The notes beneath the pieces were generated by a model that searched no databases, had not been told where the DNA came from, and was given only the letters and a program-made list of their open reading frames with translations. Shown piece after piece: positions 21,617 to 56,351 of a DNA stretch of 64,000 bases. This stretch comes from Formivibrio sp. (GTDB taxonomy: Bacteria > Pseudomonadota > Gammaproteobacteria > Burkholderiales > Chitinibacteraceae), in the NCBI GenBank assembly GCA_031291275.1, contig JARLJJ010000633.1:1-64000 (forward strand). The letters run 5' to 3'. A program made the translations under genes and the position numbers. Every line of letters starts with the position of its first letter. The stretch's first letter is position 1.

Positions 21617-22729
21617 TTATAGCCCTGAAGGAGGGGCAATGTTGACCCATTCCGAGCCGCGCACATCAAGATAAATTGCTGATGTATTCGCGTTGCGGTG
21701 CCCCCAGATAGCCTGAGAAAAGTCCTTTCCATACTGCTTTTCATAGAGTCGTCCCGATAAGCTGCGGATTTCGTGCAGAGTCGGTGGATTCTCTCCCATG
21801 ATTTCGGCCTTTTCGCGCGCAATAGCAAATCCATTGCTGAGAATTGAGATATACAGAGGATCACCGTGCTTGGCCTTCCCGCTGTTCCGGGTGTGGTAGA
21901 GCAAGGTTTTCGCGGTATACGATCCTTTCCGGCAGGATTCGATCACGCTGCCCAGTGTGGCGCCTGGTAGATCCGGGAGCGACAACTCCAGAGACAGGGC
22001 CACTTTCTGTCCGGTCTTGATCTGCTGCACAAACAGGTGGTTGTCGCGCACGTCCGTAAATTTCATATTGGCCAGATCCTCGCGCCGCTGCCCGGTAAGT
22101 AAAGCAAGCTCGATCATTCTGGCAATCCATGGCCGCGCGCGCTCTTCTTTAGCCTTGGTGTAGATCAGCTCAAACTGCTCCAGCGTCAGGCGCTCACGCT
22201 TCACTTTTACGCCGCGCACTTTAGTGATTTCTGCGGGGTTTTGTTGAATCCATCCTGCTGCCTGTGCTTCCCTGAACAGATCAACCAGACGTGAGCGAAC
22301 GTGCGTGGCCATGCGATTTTTCCCTGCGTCAGTCCATTCCTTCAGCAGATCGGCGATGTCGAGTGTCGTGATGGATGAAATGGGCCAGTTGTCCCACTTC
22401 TTGCGTGCGACCACCAGATAGGCCCGAACGCTGTTTAGACTTGTGGCGCGTAGCTCACGGGTTTCCTCAAGTAGCGTTTTATATCGATCGCACCAGTCGC
22501 CGAACGTTTTGTCATTGCTCATCCCGTTGAGCCGGTCAACCACGCGCAGGGATGTTTGAGGGCCGGAAATGTGTAGATTTGCCTCAATGGACTGATCGAA
22601 CGCTTCGCGCTTGTCCCGACCGATCCCGTATTCCTTGCCATCGCGCGGATCGCGCCAAGAATAGTATCCGTTGCGTTCGTAGAGGTTTTCCGGGAATGCC
22701 CGGTGCTTACTATTTCTTGGCCGTGCCAT
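21617..22729 (-). CDS. int: Phage tyrosine recombinase integrase
   Basis: 'ELALLTGQRREDLANM', 'LHEIRSLSGRLYEKQYG', 'IWGHRNANTSAIYLD'. Confidence 0.92.
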   Translation of the reverse strand: MARPRNSKHRAFPENLYERNGYYSWRDPRDGKEYGIGRDKREAFDQSIEANLHISGPQTSLRVVDRLNGMSNDKTFGDWCDRYKTLLEETRELRATSLNSVRAYLVVARKKWDNWPISSITTLDIADLLKEWTDAGKNRMATHVRSRLVDLFREAQAAGWIQQNPAEITKVRGVKVKRERLTLEQFELIYTKAKEERARPWIARMIELALLTGQRREDLANMKFTDVRDNHLFVQQIKTGQKVALSLELSLPDLPGATLGSVIESCRKGSYTAKTLLYHTRNSGKAKHGDPLYISILSNGFAIAREKAEIMGENPPTLHEIRSLSGRLYEKQYGKDFSQAIWGHRNANTSAIYLDVRGSEWVNIAPPSGL

Positions 22730-22731
22730 GA

Positions 22732-23022
22732 TTACCGTCCTGCTGCTCTGACGCGATCAACTAGCCGGCTTCCCTTGGATGGCAAAGCAGATTCATTACT
22801 GGCAGGCAGGGCGGTGTGATGCATTGATGGTCCGCGTTTTGGTAGTGGGGTGTAACGAGATTCTCGACGAACGAACCAGGTAGCGCCGACCTTCTCGGGC
22901 GTAGGCATGATCAGTCCTGATCGTGCCCATTTACGTAGCGTGTCCATATTGGGTGCTTTGTCGCCATATTCATTTTCTGCCCACACATCCAGTGTGATCC
23001 AGGCGGGTTGTTTTTGGCTCAT
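22732..23022 (-). CDS. xis: Excisionase-like DNA-binding protein
   Basis: 'WAENEYGDKAPNMDTLRKWARSGLIMPTPEKVGATWFVR', adjacent to int. Confidence 0.8.
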   Translation of the reverse strand: MSQKQPAWITLDVWAENEYGDKAPNMDTLRKWARSGLIMPTPEKVGATWFVRRESRYTPLPKRGPSMHHTALPASNESALPSKGSRLVDRVRAAGR

Positions 23023-23549
23023 GCCGCTCTCCCAACCTTCAAAAGTTTTTCGTCTACCATCTTTGCCGCTTCCAGTAGTGCCCTGGTTAGGTGTGACCGA
23101 TCGGCTACACGGATCAAGGCATCAAACCAATTGATGCTGGCGCGGATGGCTTCTATTTCCGTCATCGTTGCGATGTAGTGTCCTCGCAGGACAAAGCGTT
23201 CACCAATATCGCCAAGCGCATCTGCAGCGGCTTCAAAAATCGGCATGCTGGGTACGACCTGGTCTCGGGTACCGTCATTTGCCGCCCAGGTGTGAATCTC
23301 TTTCGCTAAGCAGAACGCGCCGCAGTTGCTTTCGTTCAGCTCAATGAACCCTGTGGTATCAAGCTTGCCGGCCATCAACTTTTCGACCAGGACGAAAAGC
23401 GGGGTGATGAGGTGGCTGCAGTCCTCATCGCCTGCTTGAGTGGCGTTGGCCAGCGCAAGGCGCGTGTTGAATGCCTTGACTGCGGCATCGCGGTTCAGGA
23501 TTTGTTGGGGCTTGGCGCGCGCGGCGGCGCGGCGTTGGGCGCGGTTCAT
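23019..23549 (-). CDS. Phage hypothetical protein
   Basis: ORF overlapping neighbours in the leftward operon; start MNRAQRRAAAR. Confidence 0.6.
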   Translation of the reverse strand: MNRAQRRAAARAKPQQILNRDAAVKAFNTRLALANATQAGDEDCSHLITPLFVLVEKLMAGKLDTTGFIELNESNCGAFCLAKEIHTWAANDGTRDQVVPSMPIFEAAADALGDIGERFVLRGHYIATMTEIEAIRASINWFDALIRVADRSHLTRALLEAAKMVDEKLLKVGRAA

Positions 23550-23872
23550 GCTGCCTCCCGTAAAGTCATCCATTCGGTGTCTTCTGGCGTAACCAGTAGT
23601 GCGGAATGCTGGAATGTGGCGGTTAAAAGCTCGTTAACCAGGCACTTGGCTGTCTTGATAAGCGCTTCAGGCGTTGTTGGAAAGCGCGGATAATTTACCA
23701 GGCCAACTACAAATCCAGCTTCTTCGCCGCCGGTGTAGATGAATGTTGTTGGCTCGATCGTGACGCACAGCCCTTGGTGAAAGCAGTATTGCCTAATTGC
23801 TTGTTTCGCAACCTCGATAGGTCCGCTCATAAAAATATGAACTCGGTATGTTTTTACGGATTTGATTTGCAT
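23546..23872 (-). CDS. Phage hypothetical protein
   Basis: ORF in the leftward operon; start chosen at MQIKSVKTYRVHIF because the longer track ORF overlaps the upstream gene. Confidence 0.6.
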   Translation of the reverse strand: MQIKSVKTYRVHIFMSGPIEVAKQAIRQYCFHQGLCVTIEPTTFIYTGGEEAGFVVGLVNYPRFPTTPEALIKTAKCLVNELLTATFQHSALLVTPEDTEWMTLREAA

Positions 23873-23879
23873 GGCAGCG

Positions 23880-24815
23880 TTACTCGCAAAGCCCATAGAT
23901 GGATGAGCAAAGCGGCCCGTCATCCATGCGGATAAAGTCAAATTGCTTGCCGCCGCGACTGGTCTGTGCCCACTCGACAAATACGTCGATGGTTTGTGTG
24001 GCTGACCATGCGCTATCGCCTGATGGCGCAGCAAAGAAGGTTGAAGCGCCGCGCTTGCTTGCTTCTTTGACGGCTAATTCCCATTGCCGGATGCGGTCGA
24101 TTTCTTCTGGGAAACGCTTGCTTATTTCCAACAACTCATCCTTGCGGCAGTTGATGCAGGGCATGCAGCCAACGCGGCCCATACCCTGCTCATACAGCGG
24201 GTTGTGCTTTATTCCGTGCTTTTTGTGCATGTCAAAGCAGTCTTGCGCTGTCCATTTCAGGATGGGCCGGTAGTTCCACATTTCCGCGCCGTTGTTGTTG
24301 GTCAAGGCTAGATCGTTTTCTATCAGTAAACTTCGGCGCAGCGATTCATCAGCCCGTACGCCCTGCCATGAAATCACATCATGCCCAGTGTCCATCAGCG
24401 GGAATTGCACTTTCCGCTGAATCGGGTTGCGCTTCAATTCCTCGCTGCAGAAAGCGGCCTTAGCCGACGGGAAGCGACCCTTCCAGATGCATAGATCGAG
24501 AAACGGAATGCCGCTCGGCACCAGCGCAGCAGCAGCGCGATCAATTGCGGTTTGCGGCACGCCTTTATCGGCCCAATGTGCCAGCACGTATTCGCGCTTC
24601 TTGGTGATCTGCGCAGAAAAATCCCCTTTGACCCAGCGAATTTGCATTCCGGTAGCTTGTTCCAGATAGTGCAGGTAATCATAGGTCTGCGGGTGCTCAT
24701 TGCCGGTATCGGCAAACACGGCCTGCATGTTTTCCGGCTGGCGCTCTCTGGCCAGCAATAGCAGTGCTGTTGAGTCCTTGCCTCCGCTAATGCTTAGGAT
24801 GTTGTGTTCGCTCAC
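23880..24815 (-). CDS. PAPS-reductase/ATP-PPase-like phage protein
   Basis: 'ILSISGGKDSTALLLLA' PP-loop, 'VFADTGNEHPQTYDYL', C-terminal 'RVGCMPCINCRKDELLEI'; GTG start overlaps the RT stop (GTGA). Confidence 0.87.
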   Translation of the reverse strand: MSEHNILSISGGKDSTALLLLARERQPENMQAVFADTGNEHPQTYDYLHYLEQATGMQIRWVKGDFSAQITKKREYVLAHWADKGVPQTAIDRAAAALVPSGIPFLDLCIWKGRFPSAKAAFCSEELKRNPIQRKVQFPLMDTGHDVISWQGVRADESLRRSLLIENDLALTNNNGAEMWNYRPILKWTAQDCFDMHKKHGIKHNPLYEQGMGRVGCMPCINCRKDELLEISKRFPEEIDRIRQWELAVKEASKRGASTFFAAPSGDSAWSATQTIDVFVEWAQTSRGGKQFDFIRMDDGPLCSSIYGLCE

Positions 24816-26173
24816 GCGGCTCTCCTGTATGTCTTGGTAATGTCGTAATTGATGGTCTGCCCGCGACTGCGCAGCAGGTTTGCCAGTGCGGTGCGGTCTT
24901 TGTGGCTGTGGCTGGCTTGGCGCAGCAGTCCGAAGTAGCTGTTGCCGACTTCAAACAGGTCTGCGCTCGGCAGGCGCTCGAGGCGGTGCATGCCGGTATT
25001 GATCGTTCTGCGGCGGGTGGTACGGCGCCATGGGCTGATCACCTGGCCGATGAAATCCACGCCGCGATCAACCGGCTGCAGAATGGTTTTCTTGTGGTTC
25101 AGCTGTGCGCCCAGTGTGGCCGGCAGGAATTCTGCGATGCGTGCATGCGCGGCATTCAGCCATTGCGGTGACTGGTGCAGCAGGATGAAGTCATCGACAT
25201 AGCGCACGTAATGCTTCGCGCCGATATGGTGTTTGGCGAACTGATCCAGATCGTTCAGGTAGACGTTGGCGAAGAACTGGCTGCTCAGGTTGCCGATCGG
25301 CAGGCCGAGGTGTTCCGGCTGATTGGTCAGGCGCTTGTGGTGCGGCACCAAGTCCAGCAGCTCCGGGCTGCAGCGTAGGTCATAGTTCTGGCGCGGATCA
25401 TGCAACAGGATGGTTTCGGCCAGGCTTAGCCACCATGGATCGCTGATATGGGCGGCCAGCTGCTTGCGCAGGATGCGTTTGTCGATGCTGACAAAGAAAT
25501 TCGCCAGGTCGAGCTTCAGGTAGTGCGCCGGCTGCTGCCAGTTCTGGGTGATGCTGCGGATTTTGCTTTCCAGCCGCTGGGCTGCGTAGAGCGTGCCGCG
25601 TCCTTTGATGCAGGCGCAGCTATCGGCAATAAATCGCGCTTCGATGCTTGGGGAGACGTGGTTGTAAAACAGGTGGTGCACGATCCGGTCACGGAATTCT
25701 GCCGCCCATACTTCCCGCGGCTTCGGGTGGGTGACCACAAAGCAGATCGAGCGACCGGGCTGGTAGGCGCCAGCGCGCAGCGCGGTATTCAGCTCGATCA
25801 GGTTGCGTTCAAGGTTTTGCTCGAATGCCAGTGCGGAGCGGCTGTTGCGCTTGGTGCGCCGGCAATCAAAGTAAGCTTGTACCAGGTCGGAAAAAAGGAA
25901 AGCCGCATCGCTTTCATCTGCGGACTGCCCGAGCGCAATACTCGTTGTCCTTGTCGTTGTTGTTCTGGTTGCCATTGTCGAAGTTCTGAATAAAGGCATA
26001 GTGGGCTCCATCGTGCTATCTACGTCGCCGCGCCGATTACTCAGTGCGGAAACTGCGTCGGACCTGATCCCGCATGGGCGAGTGGTATCCGGGCTACGCG
26101 TGGCGGTGGCTTTACGGGGCCAGCGGCACGACCAGATTAAAATTCGCATAGGCATGGCCGCCGTGGCGGTCAT
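24812..26173 (-). CDS. DGR reverse transcriptase (start uncertain; in-frame ATGs at 26173, 26011, 25999 and 25975)
   Basis: RT motifs 'YLKLDLANFFVSIDKRIL', 'LGLPIGNLSSQFFANVYLNDLD', 'YVRYVDDFILLH', 'FIGQVISP'. Confidence 0.95.
   Translation of the reverse strand: MTATAAMPMRILIWSCRWPRKATATRSPDTTRPCGIRSDAVSALSNRRGDVDSTMEPTMPLFRTSTMATRTTTTRTTSIALGQSADESDAAFLFSDLVQAYFDCRRTKRNSRSALAFEQNLERNLIELNTALRAGAYQPGRSICFVVTHPKPREVWAAEFRDRIVHHLFYNHVSPSIEARFIADSCACIKGRGTLYAAQRLESKIRSITQNWQQPAHYLKLDLANFFVSIDKRILRKQLAAHISDPWWLSLAETILLHDPRQNYDLRCSPELLDLVPHHKRLTNQPEHLGLPIGNLSSQFFANVYLNDLDQFAKHHIGAKHYVRYVDDFILLHQSPQWLNAAHARIAEFLPATLGAQLNHKKTILQPVDRGVDFIGQVISPWRRTTRRRTINTGMHRLERLPSADLFEVGNSYFGLLRQASHSHKDRTALANLLRSRGQTINYDITKTYRRAA
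25917..26007 (-). repeat. DGR template repeat (TR)
   Basis: 91 nt collinear with three downstream VRs; coding-strand sense is AAC/GAC-rich and in VR frame reads AHYAFIQNFDNGNQNNNDKDNEYCARAVRR-stop. Confidence 0.96.
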
Positions 26174-26523
26174 ACAACGAGCGACGATGCGGATTTTCGC
26201 CAGCCACTGGTTTGCTTCCCGATGCTGTCCGTAAGTGCGATGGCTGTGGCGTACTGGGCGACCGAGATGAAGCGCTTATCTTTCGATAGGCGAATCAGCA
26301 GCTCGGCCACTTGCAGGCGCTCCAGCAGGTCTTCCAGGTGCGGCACCTTGTTCTTGGCGACGTTGGCCCGGAAGATCAAAACAATCAGGGACAAGCACTC
26401 GTCCCGAATTCGTCCGCCGATCGATGCCTTATAATCGCGGGGCATGTTGCGAACCAAATCAGTGGCCAAGTCCAGTAGGTCGTAGGCTGATTTGTAAATC
26501 GGTAGTTGCGTATGCAGTGCCAT
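26170..26523 (-). CDS. avd: DGR accessory variability determinant (Avd-like four-helix protein)
   Basis: 'LPIYKSAYDLLDLATDLVRNMPRDYKASIGGRIRDECLSLIVLIFRAN...LLERLQVAELLIRLSKDKRFIS'; start set after the VR1 hairpin. Confidence 0.88.
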   Translation of the reverse strand: MALHTQLPIYKSAYDLLDLATDLVRNMPRDYKASIGGRIRDECLSLIVLIFRANVAKNKVPHLEDLLERLQVAELLIRLSKDKRFISVAQYATAIALTDSIGKQTSGWRKSASSLVV

Positions 26524-26541
26524 GGCGAAAAATTTTCCAGC

Positions 26542-26557
26542 GCGGGCTTGCGCCCGC
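26542..26557 (-). promoter_or_regulatory. DGR target hairpin downstream of VR1
   Basis: gcgggc-ttgc-gcccgc; exactly 32 nt from the VR1 3' (coding) end. Confidence 0.85.
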
Positions 26558-26574
26558 TTCAAATGGTTAAAGGG

Positions 26575-27054
26575 TTAAATAACTGAGACTCTGCGGACTG
26601 CCCGAGCGCAATACTCGTAGCCCTTGACGTCGCCGTTCTGGCCGCCACCGTCGAAGGTCTGAACAAAGGCATAGCGGGCTTCTGTGGGATGCTCTTCGCA
26701 GGACCAGTGCCAGCGCGGCTTAAAGTGTTTTTTCAGGTTGGCGTAGAGCAGCGACTGCTCGCGGCGGGTAGGGAGTTCGCCGCCTTGCTCGGCGGCCCAA
26801 TCCTTGGCGGCTTGCCACTTGATGTCTTCAATGCTTTCAGGAAGTAGGATCAGGTGGTAGTCGGCGGCGCCATCCTCGCCCAGGATGATGCCGGCGTAGT
26901 GTTCGCCATCCGCTAGTGTGGGGCGGGTCGGCGCGGCAACGGATGCTGGTTTAACTGCCTGCTGGCAGATGGTTTCTAGGATCTGCTTCACGATCGACGT
27001 GGCCGGTAGAGTGATCGTGGCCTCGCCGACTTTCAGGGTTACTTCTTGTGTCAT
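26575..27054 (-). CDS. DGR target protein 1 (DUF1566/Lcl-type variable C-terminus)
   Basis: C-terminal 'ARYAFVQTFDGGGQNGDVKGYEYCARAVRRVSVI' encoded by VR1. Confidence 0.9.
   Translation of the reverse strand: MTQEVTLKVGEATITLPATSIVKQILETICQQAVKPASVAAPTRPTLADGEHYAGIILGEDGAADYHLILLPESIEDIKWQAAKDWAAEQGGELPTRREQSLLYANLKKHFKPRWHWSCEEHPTEARYAFVQTFDGGGQNGDVKGYEYCARAVRRVSVI
26590..26680 (-). repeat. DGR variable repeat VR1
   Basis: 91-nt alignment to TR; 13 mismatches, all at TR T on the + strand (A in coding sense). Confidence 0.96.
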
Positions 27055-27080
27055 GGTTTAATCCTCAAAAATTTCACCAC

Positions 27081-27096
27081 GCGGGCTTGCGCCCGC
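27081..27096 (-). promoter_or_regulatory. DGR target hairpin downstream of VR2
   Basis: gcgggcttgcgcccgc, 32 nt from the VR2 end. Confidence 0.85.
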
Positions 27097-27110
27097 TCTG
27101 AATGGTTGAA

Positions 27111-27509
27111 TTACTCAATGACTGAGACTCTGCGGACTGCCCGAGCGCAATACTCGTTGCCCTTGTCGTGGAAGTCCTGGTCGCCATAGTCGAAGTTCTG
27201 AACAAAGGCATAGGGGGAATAGTTCGGATACTCTTCTCCCGACCAGTACCAACTTGGCTTGAATCGCTCTTTCAGATTGGTGAAAAGCAGCGACTGCTCG
27301 CGGCGGGTAGGAAGTTCACCGCCTTGTTCTGCTGCCCAATCCATAGCGGTTTGCCAGTTGACGTCCTCGACTTCGCCCGGGATCAGGATTAGGTGGTAGT
27401 CGGCGGCGCCATCCTTGCCCAGGATGATGCCGGCGTAGAGTTCTCCCGCTGCCAAGGTCTGTTTCGCGATCGATGTAGTTGGCAGAGTGATGGTGGTTTC
27501 TTGGTTCAT
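27111..27509 (-). CDS. DGR target protein 2 (paralogue of target 1)
   Basis: Shares 'YAGIILGKDGAADYHLIL...WAAEQGGELPTRREQSLL' with target 1; C-terminal 'SPYAFVQNFDYGDQDFHDKGNEYCARAVRRVSVIE'. Confidence 0.9.
   Translation of the reverse strand: MNQETTITLPTTSIAKQTLAAGELYAGIILGKDGAADYHLILIPGEVEDVNWQTAMDWAAEQGGELPTRREQSLLFTNLKERFKPSWYWSGEEYPNYSPYAFVQNFDYGDQDFHDKGNEYCARAVRRVSVIE
27129..27217 (-). repeat. DGR variable repeat VR2
   Basis: 89-nt alignment to TR; 9 mismatches, all at TR T on the + strand. Confidence 0.96.
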
Positions 27510-27535
27510 GATTCAATCCTTAAAAATTTGACCAC

Positions 27536-27551
27536 GCGGGCTTGCGCCCGC
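27536..27551 (-). promoter_or_regulatory. DGR target hairpin downstream of VR3
   Basis: gcgggcttgcgcccgc, 32 nt from the VR3 end. Confidence 0.85.
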
Positions 27552-27565
27552 TCTGAATGGTTGAA

Positions 27566-28177
27566 TTACTCAATTACTGACAATCTGCGGACTGCCCGAG
27601 CGCAATACTCGTTGCCCTTGGCGTTGCCGCACTGGTGGCCAGTGTCGAAGTACTGAAAAAAGGCACAGTGGGCGGAATACTGGGTGCTGGACCAATGCCA
27701 GCGCGGTTCGAAGGCCTCTGCATTGCCTTGTTGGAAGGCCTCGACGCTGGTTTGCGCTGGAGAGGTTTTGGTGTACGGATAGCTGACCGGTACGCTGCTG
27801 GCGTTGTCGCCATCCCGGAAGCTGCACCAGTTCTGCTCTGTGGTCGGTTTCAGGTTGCGATAGCAGATTTCCAGCTCGTCGCGGCTGGGTAGATACCAGT
27901 CGTCCAGATCCGCAATGCGCAGGGCCAGAATACGCTTCGCCAAGCCGCTGCCTGCCGCTGCCATAGCCAAAGTGTTGCTGCGGCCGTCGAAGCACGAATC
28001 TGCGCCATCGACTTCTTGCGGGTATTCGCCCCATGCAATATCGATGAATTCGCCTTCGGCTTTTGGGCTTACGATCAGCGCATGTAATTGGTCGCCATTG
28101 CGGAATAGACCGGCGAAAAATCCGCCAGAAAGCACTGATCCGATAGCGGGGAGGGTGGTTTTGTTGATGTGGTTCAT
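27566..28177 (-). CDS. DGR target protein 3 (DUF1566-like)
   Basis: 'DDWYLPSRDELEICYRNLKP...RWHWSSTQYSAHCAFFQYFDTGHQCGNAKGNEYCARAVRRLSVIE'. Confidence 0.9.
   Translation of the reverse strand: MNHINKTTLPAIGSVLSGGFFAGLFRNGDQLHALIVSPKAEGEFIDIAWGEYPQEVDGADSCFDGRSNTLAMAAAGSGLAKRILALRIADLDDWYLPSRDELEICYRNLKPTTEQNWCSFRDGDNASSVPVSYPYTKTSPAQTSVEAFQQGNAEAFEPRWHWSSTQYSAHCAFFQYFDTGHQCGNAKGNEYCARAVRRLSVIE
27584..27673 (-). repeat. DGR variable repeat VR3
   Basis: Alignment to TR; 11 mismatches, all at TR T on the + strand. Confidence 0.96.
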
Positions 28178-28278
28178 TTGATGCTCCAGATGATGGTGAT
28201 AAAAGTGATACAAACTGGTACTGCGATAAGTGCGACGACAAATGGGAATGCGGCACGAGCAAGCTGGCGACGGGTCAT
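28174..28278 (-). CDS. 34-aa single-TM peptide MTRRQLARAAFPFVVALIAVPVCITFITIIWSIK
   Basis: Not in the ORF track; start overlaps the kinase stop and stop overlaps the target-3 ATG (ATGA junctions). Confidence 0.55.
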   Translation of the reverse strand: MTRRQLARAAFPFVVALIAVPVCITFITIIWSIK

Positions 28279-28940
28279 GCCACGCCTCGGCGTGCTCGGT
28301 CCATCATCATCAGGGCGTGTTCTGCTTGCTTGTGCAGTAGGGCGATGTCCCCGGTGTTGTCCAGATCGCGGTCTATCAGATAGCGCGGCAATGGCATTTC
28401 GCTCTTGTGTGTGGCGATGAGGGCTAAATCTGGCCGGTGCAGTTTCCAGATTTCTCCGCCATGCACACTGATGAATTCGGCTTCACCTTCAAAGCGACAG
28501 TCCGGGATGACGACCGGTCCATTGATATCAGCCAGACTCTGCGCAAGTTCGGTAATCCAGTAGTCTTCGCCGAAGACTTCGCGACGATATTCAGTTCCCC
28601 AAAGCTGCATTGCCCAGCGCGGGCTGCGCGGCTGGCTGATATGCGCTTCAACAATTTCATTACTGGCCTCGTCCATCTGCAATTCTTTGGCAAGGATCAG
28701 GCCGACAAAGCGGTGATCATTGCAGCGGCTAAGGCTTAGCTGCTTGCATGGCACTTCTTTACCTTCGCGATCGAGAAGCTTGTCAACGTGCACGCCAAAT
28801 GCGGCGCAGATTTCAAGGCGTAGGGCATCGGCAAAGGCGATCTTGGTGTAGCCGTAGCGATCACTAAGGTGGTCTGCCACAGTGTCTTTCCCGCTGCCGG
28901 CCGGGCCGGTGAGTGCGATGATGGGATAGTGTTTGGTCAT
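28275..28940 (-). CDS. Phage deoxynucleoside monophosphate kinase-like P-loop protein
   Basis: 'IIALTGPAGSGKDTVADHLSDRYGYTKIAFADALR'. Confidence 0.82.
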   Translation of the reverse strand: MTKHYPIIALTGPAGSGKDTVADHLSDRYGYTKIAFADALRLEICAAFGVHVDKLLDREGKEVPCKQLSLSRCNDHRFVGLILAKELQMDEASNEIVEAHISQPRSPRWAMQLWGTEYRREVFGEDYWITELAQSLADINGPVVIPDCRFEGEAEFISVHGGEIWKLHRPDLALIATHKSEMPLPRYLIDRDLDNTGDIALLHKQAEHALMMMDRARRGVA

Positions 28941-28955
28941 GTTGTCCTGTCCTGG

Positions 28956-29213
28956 TTAAAGCAAACAAAGTTGCCCGGCGCGTTCAAGCTCAAGTTTTGA
29001 GGCCATGTAGAGGCGGCCATCAATGTTGTGGTCCTCATCGGCACCTTCTTGGCAGCAGGATTCAGCGTCATCCTCATTGATGTGAATCACCCCACATTCA
29101 GAGCACTTGAACATGGTGGTTACCTTCGGCTCGCAACACTCTTGGGCGTCTTCGTAGGTGTCGTGAATGTCGTCACATGCGCCGCAGCAAAAAACCTCAA
29201 CAACTCTCTCCAT
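28956..29213 (-). CDS. Cys-rich (zinc-ribbon-like) phage protein
   Basis: 'FCCGACDDIHDTYEDAQECC...FKCSECGVIHINEDDAESCC'. Confidence 0.6.
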   Translation of the reverse strand: MERVVEVFCCGACDDIHDTYEDAQECCEPKVTTMFKCSECGVIHINEDDAESCCQEGADEDHNIDGRLYMASKLELERAGQLCLL

Positions 29214-29237
29214 GGTTTTCTCCGGTGGTTAAAGGCC

Positions 29238-29444
29238 TTATCGGCCGGGAAAATTCATCTGATCCAGCGCGGAAATCTCGGCGCCCACGTATGTGCTGGC
29301 GATCACATTGATCGTGCGGCAGCGGCCATCAGGCTGGCGGTGGGTGATCGATATGGCGCGAGTGCTGCCGTAGTGGCCATCGTTGGCGGCAGTGCGTGGT
29401 GTGGAGAAAGGTTTACGCGGTAAGAACTGGCGAGCGGCATTCAT
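29238..29444 (-). CDS. Small phage hypothetical protein
   Basis: ORF in operon context. Confidence 0.5.
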   Translation of the reverse strand: MNAARQFLPRKPFSTPRTAANDGHYGSTRAISITHRQPDGRCRTINVIASTYVGAEISALDQMNFPGR

Positions 29445-29641
29445 GCTGCAGCCCCTTCCATTGCGGGGACGGCAACATCTTCTTTAATGACGATGCTGCA
29501 GTAGTTCTGTCGTGTATCTGTGGAGAAAGCAATGTAGTGGTCAATGCGACTGTCTCTGCTGCGGGTGACGCAGGGCCAGCCTGCTGCGGCGTTTTGTAAT
29601 TCGCGGATGGCTTGGTTGATGGCGTTGGTGATGAGTGACAT
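29441..29641 (-). CDS. Small phage hypothetical protein
   Basis: MSLITNAINQAIRELQNAAAGWP...; overlaps the next gene by 4 nt; the longer track ORF (to 30328) runs antisense to a better-supported gene. Confidence 0.5.
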   Translation of the reverse strand: MSLITNAINQAIRELQNAAAGWPCVTRSRDSRIDHYIAFSTDTRQNYCSIVIKEDVAVPAMEGAAA

Positions 29642-29730
29642 AGCTATTGCTCCTTTGCGTTGTTGGGCGGCGGTTCCTAGGGCTAGAATGTGCGAACACC
29701 AATCCACACAATTTCGCGAAAGGAACCGCC

Positions 29731-29850
29731 ATGGGAAACTTTGATGAATTTGAAAAGCGATCACAGGTGCCGCGCCGGATGCCGCCACCGCCAGATCCGA
29801 ACAAGAAAGGACAAAGCAATGACGGAAGAAGTCAGGGACTATCTGCGTAG
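29731..29850 (+). CDS. Short Pro/Arg-rich leader ORF upstream of the SLATT-like gene
   Basis: MGNFDEFEKRSQVPRRMPPPPDPNKKGQSNDGRSQGLSA; upstream purine-rich RBS; overlaps the next gene. Confidence 0.45.
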   Translation: MGNFDEFEKRSQVPRRMPPPPDPNKKGQSNDGRSQGLSA

Positions 29851-30304
29851 CCATTACGAAGCTGTTGGCGATGTGCGTTACCATGCGCGATTGCATTACT
29901 TGCATGCCGCGTTTTACCGGCGAATTCGCATGGTGATGGCAACTATTAGCTTGATGTCCGGCACCGCAAGCTTTGCTTCGGTTGTCGGTAATTACCCGTT
30001 GATTGCTAGTGTTGCTGGCGTGGTAATTGCCGTGATCGCAGTGCTTGATGCTGTTTCCGGACTTCCGGATAAGGTCTTTTCTCACCAGTCCTTGTACAAG
30101 CGATTCACTGAACTGGCTGGCCGAGCCGCCAAATTGGAAATGGATGCGATTGATGCTGAAAGCGCTGCGATAGAGGCTGATGAGACTGGAGAAATCGAGT
30201 CTTTGCGGTTGCGCGCCTACAACGACAGCGTTCTTAGCGCTGGGCGACCGGATTATGTCGTTCCGGTTTCCTTCCTGGCTAAGCTGCTGTCCTTGATCGT
30301 CTAA
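29819..30304 (+). CDS. SLATT-domain-like two-TM membrane protein
   Basis: Two hydrophobic helices ('MVMATISLMSGTASFASVVGN', 'IASVAGVVIAVIAVLDAVSGL') followed by a helical 'LYKRFTELAGRAAKLEMDAI' region. Confidence 0.55.
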   Translation: MTEEVRDYLRSHYEAVGDVRYHARLHYLHAAFYRRIRMVMATISLMSGTASFASVVGNYPLIASVAGVVIAVIAVLDAVSGLPDKVFSHQSLYKRFTELAGRAAKLEMDAIDAESAAIEADETGEIESLRLRAYNDSVLSAGRPDYVVPVSFLAKLLSLIV

Positions 30305-30326
30305 GCGCATTTCTACTTCGCTCCAC

Positions 30327-30348
30327 AAACCCGCTTCGGCGGGTTTTT
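30327..30348 (+). terminator. Rho-independent terminator
   Basis: aaacccgc-ttcg-gcgggttttt. Confidence 0.85.
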
Positions 30349-30462
30349 ATTGGTTAATGTTGTTTAATTATTTTGGTGCCCGTTACTGCTACAAAGATCG
30401 CGTCGGCGTCCTCGGAAATTAAGGAAAAGCTGGTCATGGCATCTGCTCCGCTTTAATCATAT

Positions 30463-30555
30463 CTACAACTTTTCAACCAAAACTACAGCTTGATATTACA
30501 ACTAAGTTTTTATTATTGCAAACTAAAGTTGTAGTTTTTTCTGTTTTTGTTGTAT
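30463..30555. promoter_or_regulatory. Distal operator-like cluster (GTTGTA/TACAAC sites)
   Basis: TACAAC at 30464 and 30497, GTTGTA at 30528 and 30549, degenerate TACAGC at 30484; same core as the CI/Cro intergenic region. Confidence 0.5.
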
Positions 30556-30659
30556 GCAAAAGCGTTGGCGACAAAAAGCCCGCAGATGCGGGCTTAGACT
30601 GGATGGAGTTGAGGGAGGTGGAGGTCAGGTCTATGCTGTATCAACAACAAGGGAGAAAA

Positions 30660-30875
30660 ATGACTACTCACAAGAATATCGCGCTATTTCAAACACAAGC
30701 TGAAGTGCTTGATGTTGCAGGAAGCATTGCTGGGTTAGATGATGCTGTTGCCGAACTGGCTGGATGGATTGAATTAGCCAGAAATCGCCTATCTGATGAT
30801 GACCGAGTTGTGCTGACGTGGATCGGCGGGGTTCTTTATCGAGAAGGGCTAAGGCGCAGGAATTCCGGGCAATAA
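30660..30875 (+). CDS. Small phage hypothetical protein
   Basis: MTTHKNIALFQTQAEVLDV... preceded by 'agggaga' RBS. Confidence 0.55.
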   Translation: MTTHKNIALFQTQAEVLDVAGSIAGLDDAVAELAGWIELARNRLSDDDRVVLTWIGGVLYREGLRRRNSGQ

Positions 30876-30918
30876 AAAACCGCCCGAAGGCGGTTAGCAG
30901 AGGAGAGATGCTCTGATT

Positions 30919-31392
30919 TTATTGGCAAACGCAGTCCTGCAATTGTTTCTCTGCGGTAGGTATCCAGCCGCCGCTTTCTTCTCGCAATATGAGCTTCTCA
31001 TTCACGGCACGATCCATCATGTTTAAGAATGCGACCATTTTTCGCACAGAGTCGTCCCCGTCAAAGTGACTTAAGAACAGAACTCGGGCCAGCTTTTCTG
31101 CTGTGGGCTCAACGTGACCAGACTTCTCCCAGCGGGCAACAGATTGAGCATCTTTCCCAAGGAAAGAACCAAGATCGGCTTGGGATAAACCAATAAACTG
31201 ACGAACGAATCGCAGTTCTTTGCCTGTGAGTGGCGCAGTTCCGTTCAGTAGTGATTCGGCAATGACTCGGTCAAGGCTCTCGGAGTCCTCAATGCGTATT
31301 GCCTCTCCGTACGGAGTTTGCTCAATGGTGTAGCCGTTTACCAGCCAGACGTTATCAAGCCCGCATAACGTGTAGTGAAATAGATTTTCCAT
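30919..31392 (-). CDS. HTH antitoxin-like protein (type II TA)
   Basis: 'LTGKELRFVRQFIGLSQADLGSFLGKDAQSVARWEKSG', immediately downstream of a DUF4258-like gene. Confidence 0.75.
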   Translation of the reverse strand: MENLFHYTLCGLDNVWLVNGYTIEQTPYGEAIRIEDSESLDRVIAESLLNGTAPLTGKELRFVRQFIGLSQADLGSFLGKDAQSVARWEKSGHVEPTAEKLARVLFLSHFDGDDSVRKMVAFLNMMDRAVNEKLILREESGGWIPTAEKQLQDCVCQ

Positions 31393-31397
31393 GGTCC

Positions 31398-31682
31398 TTA
31401 CTCCAACACAGTAATGATGATGAGGTTGGGGTTGTCTTCATAAATTGCAGCAATGACAGAGTAGCTTTCTCCGGCACGGTAATGATCAAGCCGGCATTCA
31501 AGCGAGCCTTTCATGATGTTTGGTTCTGGCTCTCGGTTGATGCGACCAAGATGCAGCGCGTCATAAACCATTTTTCGCGAAATTTCGCGCTCCTTCATTC
31601 GAACCTCTGCATGCCTTGTGATCAGGACTTGATCCCTTGCTGCCGCTTGCCGAATAAAATTCAACGCATCGTGCTTATTCAT
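31398..31682 (-). CDS. DUF4258-like toxin candidate
   Basis: 'ITRHAEVRMKEREISRKMVYDALHLGRI...CRLDHYRAGESYSVIAAI'. Confidence 0.72.
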   Translation of the reverse strand: MNKHDALNFIRQAAARDQVLITRHAEVRMKEREISRKMVYDALHLGRINREPEPNIMKGSLECRLDHYRAGESYSVIAAIYEDNPNLIIITVLE

Positions 31683-31939
31683 TAGGTTGGCTAGTCTACT
31701 TTAAGTTCCTATCAAAATGATAGGTCATTGATGGTATTTTTCAACTTGATACACTGGTTGGCAGTGGCAAGTGACGAACGGCAAATTGCTCTTTCCCGCC
31801 AATTTACCTCGATTTTGAGTTGTTCGTCCGCTTCCACTCATTAATCATCTCTTGCGTCACATCCTTCGAGAAGCAAAGCGGGGCATATCCGCCAGGCCTG
31901 CTGTAGGCGCTACGGCGCCCGCAACTGTGTCCTGCGCGG

Positions 31940-32530
31940 TCAGTTCTGGATGGCTGTGAGCCGCCCATTGGTGAAATACAGGTAGCCCCCATCGTAGACC
32001 CATTGTTCGTGAATAATGTTTGATGTTATCGTTCTGTTGACTGACTCAGGCTTGCCCCAGTTGGTCTTTTCGATAACTTCCTTCTTTGTCATTCCGATCC
32101 GAACGCCATGCTTCTTGGCTTGGTTTTCTTTTTGCTTTTCTTCTGCGGCGCGTCGTATGCTTGGGTCTGTTGTATATAAGCAACGATACTCGTCCGAATC
32201 TACAGCACTGAGCGCTAATTTAGTATTGAAAGCACTTATATAGCGCTTACTACCATCGCTTAAAATAACTTCAAACGTGTCAATTGGCTGATTAATTATT
32301 TGCGAAAATGTGCCCTGCATAGATTTTGCTTGTTTGGAGTAGTCGCCAAGTTCATACCCTAGGCAGTGGGCAGGGCTTGGAAGATCAAACCAAAATGTTT
32401 TCCCGATAACATTTTCAGGAGCGTTGCCGTCGGATGCTTGAGCACTCTCAATAAGAAGACAGCTGCATATCAGGATGACAGTGCTTATTGCTCGGGCTGG
32501 AAAAGCATTGCTATTCATCTTTATCCTCAT
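31940..32530 (-). CDS. Secreted protein of unknown function with SmpA/OmlA-like C-terminus
   Basis: Signal peptide; 'GVRIGMTKKEVIEKTNWGKPESVNRT...EQWVYDGGYLYFTNGRLTAIQN'. Confidence 0.55.
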   Translation of the reverse strand: MRIKMNSNAFPARAISTVILICSCLLIESAQASDGNAPENVIGKTFWFDLPSPAHCLGYELGDYSKQAKSMQGTFSQIINQPIDTFEVILSDGSKRYISAFNTKLALSAVDSDEYRCLYTTDPSIRRAAEEKQKENQAKKHGVRIGMTKKEVIEKTNWGKPESVNRTITSNIIHEQWVYDGGYLYFTNGRLTAIQN

Positions 32531-32563
32531 TAAGTGTTATGAGTTGGCCTCCAGTAGTAATTT

Positions 32564-33289
32564 TTATATCTTGCCACCAGCCAGCCCAACAACTTCCCCA
32601 ATCAAACTGAATTCATCAATATGCTCTGGCGGAATAATTCTGTCTGGGTATGTGGACTTGTCTGTGTTATTGCTAACTAGGCGAAGTCCACCCCCGGGCT
32701 CTTTAAATACGCGTTTGATGTAGTGCTCGCCCAACCAGACAAAAGCGTAAATTTTCCCATCCAGAATAGTCTGGCGGCAATAATCAACAAGCACGGAATC
32801 GCCATCCCATAAGCGCGGCTCCATGCTATTCCCACTAACCCGCATTGTCGCTGCACATTCGGGCTTCAAACCAAGACCTTCGATGTAATCGCGCTGGAAT
32901 ACACGTCCGCGGCCTTTATAGTCAATCTCAAACATCTGCTTTCCTGGGCCTGCAGATAGATTAACCACAAGGTCCCGAATAACGACATCTCTATCATCTA
33001 GTTCGTCTTCATTGTCCCAGGTGCGGATTGGACGGGGTGGTGTAGATGAGTTCCCTTGCGCCTCTGCGTACAAATTAGATAGTTCTTCTGTCCCTGCAAG
33101 CATTTCGGAGAGGCTCATTTTTAATGCGTCAGCAATAGATTGTAGGCGTGATTGTCTCGGGCCTCCACCGGACTCCCATTTTTGAACCGCCTGCGGCGTT
33201 ACGCCAACAGCACGCGCTAGGTCCGATTGGTTCAAACCCCTTTTCTCTCGCGCAATTGCGATCGCTTTACCAATAGGCATTTTTTCCAT
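32564..33289 (-). CDS. cI: CI-like repressor with S24 peptidase domain
   Basis: N-terminal HTH 'LNQSDLARAVGVTPQAVQKWESG'; C-terminal 'RVSGNSMEPRLWDGDSVLVD'. Confidence 0.92.
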   Translation of the reverse strand: MEKMPIGKAIAIAREKRGLNQSDLARAVGVTPQAVQKWESGGGPRQSRLQSIADALKMSLSEMLAGTEELSNLYAEAQGNSSTPPRPIRTWDNEDELDDRDVVIRDLVVNLSAGPGKQMFEIDYKGRGRVFQRDYIEGLGLKPECAATMRVSGNSMEPRLWDGDSVLVDYCRQTILDGKIYAFVWLGEHYIKRVFKEPGGGLRLVSNNTDKSTYPDRIIPPEHIDEFSLIGEVVGLAGGKI

Positions 33290-54070: not shown

Positions 54071-54961
54071 ATGACAGCAACCGCACTTCCCGCAGCCTCT
54101 GTGGCGACAAATAGTTCTGCTACCGAGGCTGATGTAAAAAACTGGCTGAATAGTCTTCATGATTATTTGGCTGGTCTGCTCGGAACTACTGGCGTGGCAG
54201 CTGATGCGCTGGCTGCTCTGGGGCTTGCCGGATCAATCGTTTCTACATTTAATGGCCGAACAGGTGCTGTGTCACTTAGCGGCACAGATGTGAGTAATGC
54301 ACTTGGGTACACACCAGCAAATAATGTAGCCCATGCTTGTACTAGCGTAACGACACATACCACTATAGACGGTGGCGGCGGGGTATCCACGTATTGGGAT
54401 TTTAATTGGGCAAATGGTGGTGGAACTACGTCGCTTCTCTTTAATTATTCAGCGCCTTCAGTCGGCGGGAGTTGTATCCACCCGCACAGCCTCGTCCTTG
54501 TTGAGAATGGAAGCTACAAATTTGCAATGGACATCCGCCCCGGCGATTGGATTAAGACAAATACAGGCCAATCCAAGGTGCTGGGGATCTGGCAATCGAC
54601 ACTCGGGGATCGGCCTATGTATTCCATCAACGGGATGGGCGCCATTACATCGGATCACCCAATAAGCACGATTGCTGGATGGGCAGCAATCGACCCCGCC
54701 GCCTATGAATTGGGCAATGTTGGAAAAATACGGCCAGTGAAAACGCGAGCCGGGATGGTCGATGTATTCAGTGGAACTATACCAGCGGAGGAAGTGATGC
54801 AACTGCAGGTGGGGGATACTGTGGTCACAGAGCACGGCAATATTATTGTGGAAACCATCACGCCATTTTCATTTAACCAACAGTATCAGCCTGTCTTGTC
54901 TTTGGCGTTGGAATCCGGTGATTACTTCTTCGCGGATGGGATTGCCGTTTCCAAGCTGTAA
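54071..54961 (+). CDS. Tail fibre-like protein with C-terminal Hint domain
   Basis: Tail-like N-terminus 'FNGRTGAVSLSGTDVSNALGYTPANN'; C-terminus 'GGSCIHPHSLVLVENGSYKFAMDIRPGDWI...AITSDHPIS...LALESGDYFFADGIAVSKL'. Confidence 0.72.
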   Translation: MTATALPAASVATNSSATEADVKNWLNSLHDYLAGLLGTTGVAADALAALGLAGSIVSTFNGRTGAVSLSGTDVSNALGYTPANNVAHACTSVTTHTTIDGGGGVSTYWDFNWANGGGTTSLLFNYSAPSVGGSCIHPHSLVLVENGSYKFAMDIRPGDWIKTNTGQSKVLGIWQSTLGDRPMYSINGMGAITSDHPISTIAGWAAIDPAAYELGNVGKIRPVKTRAGMVDVFSGTIPAEEVMQLQVGDTVVTEHGNIIVETITPFSFNQQYQPVLSLALESGDYFFADGIAVSKL

Positions 54962-55019
54962 TAAATATTAAAACTGACCACACAGCCACCTTTGGGTGGT
55001 TTTTTTATGGGCGGAAAAA

Positions 55020-56351
55020 ATGAGTACTTACAAAGACGGTCAAGCACTGAGTGCGGACGACATGAACGCAATTATGGCGGCAAGGGATACCGCGCTCGCA
55101 TATTTTCCAACAGCACAAGCATTCGCAACTGCTTCCGAGCAAGCCGCAGTAGCTTCCACATCAGCAACAACAGCAAGTAATGCGGCTGGGGCTGCCGCTG
55201 TTAGTGCCTCTAGTGCAGCTAGCAGCTCCTCTGCAGCGGCTAATTCTGCTGCAGCAGCAAGCGCTATTGTTGTTGGTGACCCCGCAGCACTAAGAACTGC
55301 TATTGGTGCGCTTGCAAGCGTAAATCCTAGCAGCAGTGGGGCGTGGAACCACGACGGACCAGCGGTTCTAAATAACGCTGGGTCGGCACTAAATGTCTAT
55401 CGACCTGCCGGTGGGGATGGTGCGGGAACAGGCCCGTTTATTGCTGTTGGTATTCCAGGGCAATATAAATCAGGGCTGCTTCAACTATCCGCAGGAAACC
55501 ACCTAGATTTTTACACGGGTAATGGCTCTAGCGCCTACGTGTTGGGCCTGAGGCTGACCACGGAGCAGCGGTTGCTGGTTAACACCACGATAGACGACGG
55601 AGTAAACATAGCGCAGTTCGCCGGTCCGGTTGGCATTAACACAGGGGGGGTCGCGACACTTACTCTGGGTAATGCCGGTAATTATGGTGTCATAGCGTCC
55701 GGTGGGTACGCTGCCGCCATCTACCTAAATGGTGCTGCGCGCGGAGGCGCAGCAGGTACGGGTACAGCGGATGGTGCGATGGTGTTTGCCACCAATGAAA
55801 CGGTTCGTTTTAGCAACGCGTCTGTCAACGTGGATAAGTTGACGCTAGATACCTCCGGCAACCTGCTGGTGGGAGCGACGAGCACGTATGGTATTGGCGT
55901 AACCATAAAACCTACGGGGGAAATTTCCTCAACCTATTCTGGCACCTCGGGCAATCATTGTTTGTTCTTAAACAATAACAGCACCGTAGGCTCAATCGCA
56001 TCAAGCGGTTCGTCTACTTACTACAACACCTCATCCGATTACCGCCTCAAAACCAACGTCCAGCCGATGCAGGGCGCACTGGCAACCGTCGCCCAACTTC
56101 GTCCCGTCACCTACAATTGGCTGGCAGATAACTCAACCGGGCATGGTTTCATCGCCCATGAACTGCAAGTCGTGGTGCCGGAATGTGTGACAGGCGCGAA
56201 GGATGCCGTGGGTGCAGACGGCAAGCCGGTGTATCAGGGCATTGATACCTCGTTCCTCGTCGGTGTACTCACCGCCGCAATTCAGGAGTTGAGCACTAAG
56301 CTCGACGCCGCGAATGACCGTATCGCCAAACTCGAAGGAGTCGCAGCATGA
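55020..56351 (+). CDS. Tail fibre with C-terminal peptidase S74 chaperone domain
   Basis: 'SSDYRLKTNVQPMQGALATVAQLRPVTYNW...GHGFIAHELQVVVPECV'; Ala-rich N-terminal shaft. Confidence 0.88.
   Translation: MSTYKDGQALSADDMNAIMAARDTALAYFPTAQAFATASEQAAVASTSATTASNAAGAAAVSASSAASSSSAAANSAAAASAIVVGDPAALRTAIGALASVNPSSSGAWNHDGPAVLNNAGSALNVYRPAGGDGAGTGPFIAVGIPGQYKSGLLQLSAGNHLDFYTGNGSSAYVLGLRLTTEQRLLVNTTIDDGVNIAQFAGPVGINTGGVATLTLGNAGNYGVIASGGYAAAIYLNGAARGGAAGTGTADGAMVFATNETVRFSNASVNVDKLTLDTSGNLLVGATSTYGIGVTIKPTGEISSTYSGTSGNHCLFLNNNSTVGSIASSGSSTYYNTSSDYRLKTNVQPMQGALATVAQLRPVTYNWLADNSTGHGFIAHELQVVVPECVTGAKDAVGADGKPVYQGIDTSFLVGVLTAAIQELSTKLDAANDRIAKLEGVAA

Follow-up and report, generated by a model that had tools for sequence, protein, structure and literature searches.

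Within the window, by which we mean the whole stretch of 64,000 nucleotides analysed, the minus strand carries a diversity-generating retroelement (DGR) arranged in the order target gene B, target gene A2, target gene A1, avd (accessory variability determinant), RT-15 RNA, template repeat (TR) and reverse transcriptase (RT), with variable repeats VR3, VR2 and VR1 in the three target genes, respectively. The TR (25917-26005, minus strand), delimited by alignment and a DGR scan, is 89 nt long and contains 29 adenines. It aligns without gaps to VR1 (26590-26678), VR2 (27129-27217) and VR3 (27584-27672), all on the minus strand, from which it differs at 13, 9 and 11 sites; all 33 differences fall at TR adenines, and the probability of this by chance, given the base composition, is approximately 8e-17. 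These counts are exactly those reported in an earlier, sequence-only reading of this DNA. That reading had also described a 91-nt TR that is gap-free against all three repeats, and this length holds for VR1 and VR3; for VR2, the DGR scan gives 89 nt, because an extension to 91 nt would bring in one G-to-T change, and the claimed block is therefore off by two bases there. Across the three VRs, TR adenines have become G in 19 cases, T in 8 and C in 6, and the changes fall on 17 of the 29 TR adenines. None lies within the last 29 nt, where five adenines sit, so that the RT-initiation end is indeed invariant, as had been proposed. The 28-nt end motif occurs in exactly four copies in the 5.55-Mb assembly, all at the DGR locus, and a search of this whole assembly, a draft of 677 contigs with 5% contamination, found no remote VR elsewhere in the genome. 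In DGRs, the VR lies at the 3′ end of the target gene, usually within a C-type-lectin fold; the previously noted placement of three VRs at the 3′ ends of three separate genes, with a single TR, was confirmed. The earlier reading had overlooked the RT-15 RNA and an octamer element, as well as the 6-bp GC hairpin that follows each VR and the fact that the RT frame overlaps the TR.

The RT open frame (24812-26173, minus strand), in which conserved RT sequence extends from approximately 25900 downwards, matches Pfam RVT_1 (3.5e-17) and contains both of the motifs already recognised in it, YVDD and IGNLSSQ (the YxDD and GxxxSQ types). Its closest solved structure is the BPP-1 DGR RT (8ub7, E 1.4e-56), followed by a group II intron RT (9e-14), and all its close relatives are DGRs, which places it within this class as expected. 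Avd accessory proteins are present in most, but not all, DGRs. Here, the avd gene (26170-26562, minus strand; likely start ATG near 26523, as in relatives) matches Pfam bAvd (PF22296, 1.7e-16) and phrog_3206, ‘Avd protein of DGR’ (3e-35), in keeping with its first assignment as Avd-like, and scores 62.9 bits against NCBIfam NF033474, under the family cut-off of 80. The RT, avd and the repeats constitute a bona fide DGR. The RT reading frame runs through the TR, with in-frame ATGs at 26011, 25999 and 25975, and translation of the RT, as judged from this frame, must begin in or before the TR. Of 31 distinct relatives (window included), 16 have no ATG, GTG or TTG between the TR and the conserved AYxDC motif, and in locus L009 the only ATGs still available as RT starts after an in-frame stop are those within the TR. 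When the 5′ coding part of the RT was searched for an embedded spacer RNA, no extra synonymous conservation was found, the ratio for the first 24 codons being 1.04, near background. Directly after the RT lies a gene of the PAPS-reductase family (23880-24815, minus strand), which also resembles SspD/DndC; a PAPS reductase follows the RT in locus L034 too.

What precedes the template? The region between avd and the TR contains the RT-15 structured RNA (RF03018; 26004-26186, minus strand; 151.9 bits, E 4e-37), a match that spans all 192 Rfam positions and supports 24 of 46 base pairs by compensatory change. Its 3′ end adjoins the 5′ end of the TR (RT-15 at 26186-26004, TR from 26005), and it ends within a few nucleotides of the TR in the relatives in which the TR was mapped. 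The name and type of the Rfam entry describe only an RT-associated RNA, whereas we assign it here to a DGR template, as the leader on its 5′ side. A study of 224 candidate structured RNAs is reportedly the likely source of RT-15, and the RNA is not named in the literature that we searched. Each of the 31 scanned relatives with an RT identity of at least 58% contains RT-15 (10/10, 3/3 and 18/18); among 274 genomes of the class, only its own genome matched, indicating that the RNA is rare per genome. No Rfam RNA, RT-15 or other, was found in the more distant RT relatives L044-L053, of which L044, L047, L049, L051 and L053 (RT 44-51% identical where aligned) keep the octamers described below; these five may have another leader RNA between avd and TR. 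In Bacteroides phage F2 (L062, 4714-4990), approximately 130 nt lie between avd and TR and the RT starts only about 40 nt after the TR, a layout that matches the 5′ arrangement of the RT-15 clade but has no Rfam match. The BPP-1 RNA (RF03022) and the BalMu-1 RNA (RT-14) lie 3′ of the TR, unlike RT-15; a search for an RF03022-like spacer 3′ of the TR in the window gave no Rfam RNA match.

Behind the VRs, we identified a triple octamer with the pattern TTY-N5-TTY-N5-TTY, which follows the invariant CCGCAG VR end with an onset of 8 nt in most loci and 11 nt in the window. On the minus strand, it lies at 26561-26579 after VR1 (11/11 match), 27100-27118 after VR2 (10/11) and 27555-27573 after VR3 (10/11), and the copy behind VR1 is the only full 11/11 match on either strand of the 64-kb window. 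In a first set, octamers scoring 9/11 or more, a level attained by 1.5% of randomly chosen positions within these loci, were found behind 58 of 59 unique VRs; in a second set, octamers were found behind 110 of 111, and they follow none of 44 TRs; their self-similarity at lag 8 has a z of approximately 20. Because the element crosses the stop codon, it is not explained by protein coding. It could instead be an operon translation-coupling or terminator element with no part in homing, and in many loci the third octamer does stand just ahead of the next start codon. However, the distance from VR to octamer is fixed, mostly at 8 or 11 nt, whatever comes after, octamers are also present behind distant VRs that have a different next gene, octamers two and three are located at the stop codon or past it, and none follows the TR; we therefore regard this explanation as unlikely, and prefer to see in the octamers a homing signal. 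Each triple octamer is followed by a GCGGGC-GCAA-GCCCGC hairpin (26542-26557, 27081-27096 and 27536-27551 after VR1, VR2 and VR3, respectively; minus strand), which has 6 bp and a GCAA loop in place of the 7-10 bp and GRNA loop of the BPP-1-type GC hairpin. In the clade, 49 of 164 VRs have a GC hairpin and 3 of 164 a GRNA loop, compared with 38 and 31 of 45 in BPP-1/VHML-like loci. By position, the octamers would correspond to the IMH of BPP-1 (PMC12875486, PMC3240598). No description of them was found in the freely accessible literature searched. A 7-nt analogue in other DGRs gave weak signals at lag 7 (z 4.5 in 8 loci, 3.7 in BPP-1-like and 2.8 in VHML-like loci). In the BPP-1-like loci L170-L227, the post-VR stretch consists of two 7-nt near-repeats (CCTGNNN CTTGANT) ahead of the hairpin, possibly a shorter cousin of the octamer element.

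All three target genes are on the minus strand. Gene A1 (26575-27054) encodes 159 aa and carries VR1; its paralogue A2 (27111-27509; 72% protein identity) encodes a C-type-lectin-like protein of 132 aa and carries VR2; and gene B (27566-28177), aligned with A2, encodes a stand-alone Lcl_C/DUF1566-type protein of 203 aa and carries VR3, with matches to Pfam Lcl_C (9.8e-8, just under the cut-off) and PHROG 4245 (4e-34). The AlphaFold2 model of A2 (pLDDT 89) has as its top PDB match the C-terminal domain of Legionella Lcl (8q4e, TM 0.60), and other matches are C-type lectins; in the model of the VR3 protein, the VR part has a pLDDT below 50 and was left out of the fold comparison. Two paralogous target types recur across the family, A (approximately 120-165 aa) and B (approximately 200 aa). 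Since the window has type A twice and type B once, its third target is a duplication, a second copy of A added to the usual two types. L051 and L053, which are distant relatives, have the target domain at the end of proteins of 592-676 aa, with tail-fibre matches in L053, which suggests, by inference, that the stand-alone targets may once have become detached from tail proteins.

The DGR lies inside a complete-looking lambda-like prophage, and its description as prophage-borne was thus upheld. The prophage genes include integrase, excisionase, repressor, primase, lambda-type terminase and portal, HK97-type capsid, tape measure, tail proteins and a tail fibre, and the genes on both flanks, named by translation alone, read as chromosomal; no att repeats of at least 14 nt were found. 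The left (early/lysogeny) operon, which reads leftward (21617-33289, minus strand), contains the integrase (21617-22729), the excisionase (22732-23022), a dNMP kinase (28275-28940) and the repressor (32564-33289), with the DGR between repressor and integrase and away from the tail genes. The phage's own tail fibre gene (54996-56351) has no VR, and the window targets belong to the early operon; a tail-protein target in the structural module, as in BPP-1, is absent. Elsewhere in the prophage, a DUF4258 protein beside an HTH protein (30919-31682, minus strand) has a toxin-antitoxin-like layout, and a tail-region protein encoded between the tail tip and tail fibre genes (54071-54961, plus strand) has a Hint/Vint-type (intein-like) domain in its C-terminal half (Pfam Vint, 2.1e-7).

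Relatives of the element were found in ten genome loci, 39 viral loci and nine isolate records, nearly all of them close, and an RT profile search gave at least 588 related IMG/VR stretches; among plasmids, only short RT fragments were found. In the RT tree, the window groups with the RT-15 loci (support 91/97), unresolved inside that group, which stands apart (100/100) from BPP-1, VHML and similar RTs, BPP-1 and F2 forming long branches. Across 79 further IMG/VR loci, TR-VR differences number 1958 at adenines versus 26 at other bases, and two VRs were found in 58 loci, three in 6 and one in 12. Extra VR genes several kilobases from the RT occur in L012 (1770-2426), L013 (14-397), L017 (near 2752), L035 (2755-3240) and L055 (6039-6130), with other genes between them and the cassette and with octamers present where checked. 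All 64 BPP-1/VHML/F2-like loci with a VR found have exactly one within the 2.5-kb flanks searched. In the literature, the share of DGRs with several VRs ranges from about one seventh to 29% (PMC3521204, PMC6642488), and as many as eight targets have been recorded (PMC10743442). The view that three targets for one TR are uncommon was thus overstated, two being the norm in the RT-15 family, and, judged as a multi-target DGR, the window element is unexceptional within a common clade.

Among isolates, the DGR of Burkholderia phage Magia (MT701587; PMC7883833), with an RT 65% identical, shares the Avd, the TR, the RT frame through the TR and the octamers, lies likewise in an early operon between repressor and integrase and, by our scan, has three VR genes, one of which, unlike in the window, lies 6-7 kb from the RT. 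Its authors annotated two targets, and RT-15 and the octamers are unnamed there (PMC7883833). Pseudomonas phages SC_8_H2H8_2017, Cruim01, Haboob and LPPA56 and Shewanella phage QDWS belong to the same RT clade (63-67%) and have two targets and VRs, without the target A duplicate of the window. RT-15 was found in SC_8, QDWS and LPPA56 and is annotated in the Cruim01 record. The DGR occupies the repressor-integrase interval in Haboob, lies upstream of the integrase in QDWS and LPPA56 and among early genes in Cruim01, and is placed as in the window in L012 (repressor, targets, avd, RT, integrase), L052 and L017. In contrast, the DGRs of the more distantly related phages BPP-1, VHML, VP58.5, ACA1, phiARM81mr, BalMu-1, F2 and Dulem 37 lie in or beside structural or tail genes. 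BPP-1 resembles the window in the order target-avd-TR-RT, adenine mutagenesis, Avd, RT homology and the GC-rich VR end, and differs in having one target in the tail module, a hairpin with a GAAA loop and no octamers.

Is the element still working? In loci L018 and L052, which align over 8451 nt, we counted 33 mismatches outside the VRs, none in the TR and 37 in two VRs, 36 of them at TR adenines; L034 and L041 have 32 VR mismatches, 30 at adenines, and none in the TR; and L022 and L026 show a single-base difference, at a TR-adenine site of a VR. Because such closely matching pairs diverge in both VRs almost exclusively at TR adenines, the family is active in nature and rewrites several of its targets there. 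The VR variation anticipated in related strains was thus found in L018/L052 and L034/L041. For the window itself, the VRs might be the record of past retrohoming by a decayed or silent DGR that no longer works in the present prophage; our evidence for this copy comes from one genome only, and its hairpin is short with a GCAA loop. Nevertheless, the RT, avd, RT-15 and TR are intact, as are the three VR ends and every octamer, and any two of the VRs are separated by 11-14 differences without a non-adenine change in any of them, as recent rewriting predicts. We consider a silent element improbable, and the intact parts suggest that the window copy is currently active. That the three repeats are plain gene duplicates changing by point mutation or gene conversion hardly deserves credence, even though the genes that carry VR1 and VR2 are clearly duplicates of each other (approximately 80% DNA identity), because the restriction of all 33 changes to TR adenines already refutes it and the alignment of these two genes is mixed, 39 of 60 differences not being at A.

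We are therefore highly confident that the locus is a DGR in which RT-Avd uses a single template to diversify three C-type-lectin-like proteins at adenines. In the mechanism that we propose, an RT-Avd complex would reverse-transcribe the TR RNA, misincorporating opposite adenines, and the mutated cDNA would take the place of the 3′-terminal VR in all three target genes. From conservation and position, we infer that RT-15, joined to the 5′ end of the TR, recruits RT-Avd and sets its position, as RNA located 3′ of the TR does in BPP-1, and that the invariant GC-rich end of the VR, together with the three octamers behind it, directs homing. Because the TR has no octamers, it would escape being overwritten. 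Relative to the textbook DGR, the order of the RNA, the octamer signal, the RT-TR overlap and the lectin targets in an early operon set this clade apart and make it a variant worth study. We further speculate, tentatively and with some doubt, that the RT-15 DGRs form a mechanistically distinct sub-class with a 5′ recruiting and priming RNA (a retron-like order), a triple-octamer homing signal in place of the GRNA hairpin, and small stand-alone lectin-fold binders of the early operon, which, instead of acting as tail tips, may bind molecules of the host or of rival phages within the lysogen. The octamer provides a sequence signature by which targets that have no TR close by can be found. To our knowledge, the mechanism of DGRs is known almost only from BPP-1, and the RT-15 clade would offer a second model for RT recruitment and priming, for the discrimination between template and target, and for the roles of DGR proteins that are not tail fibres.
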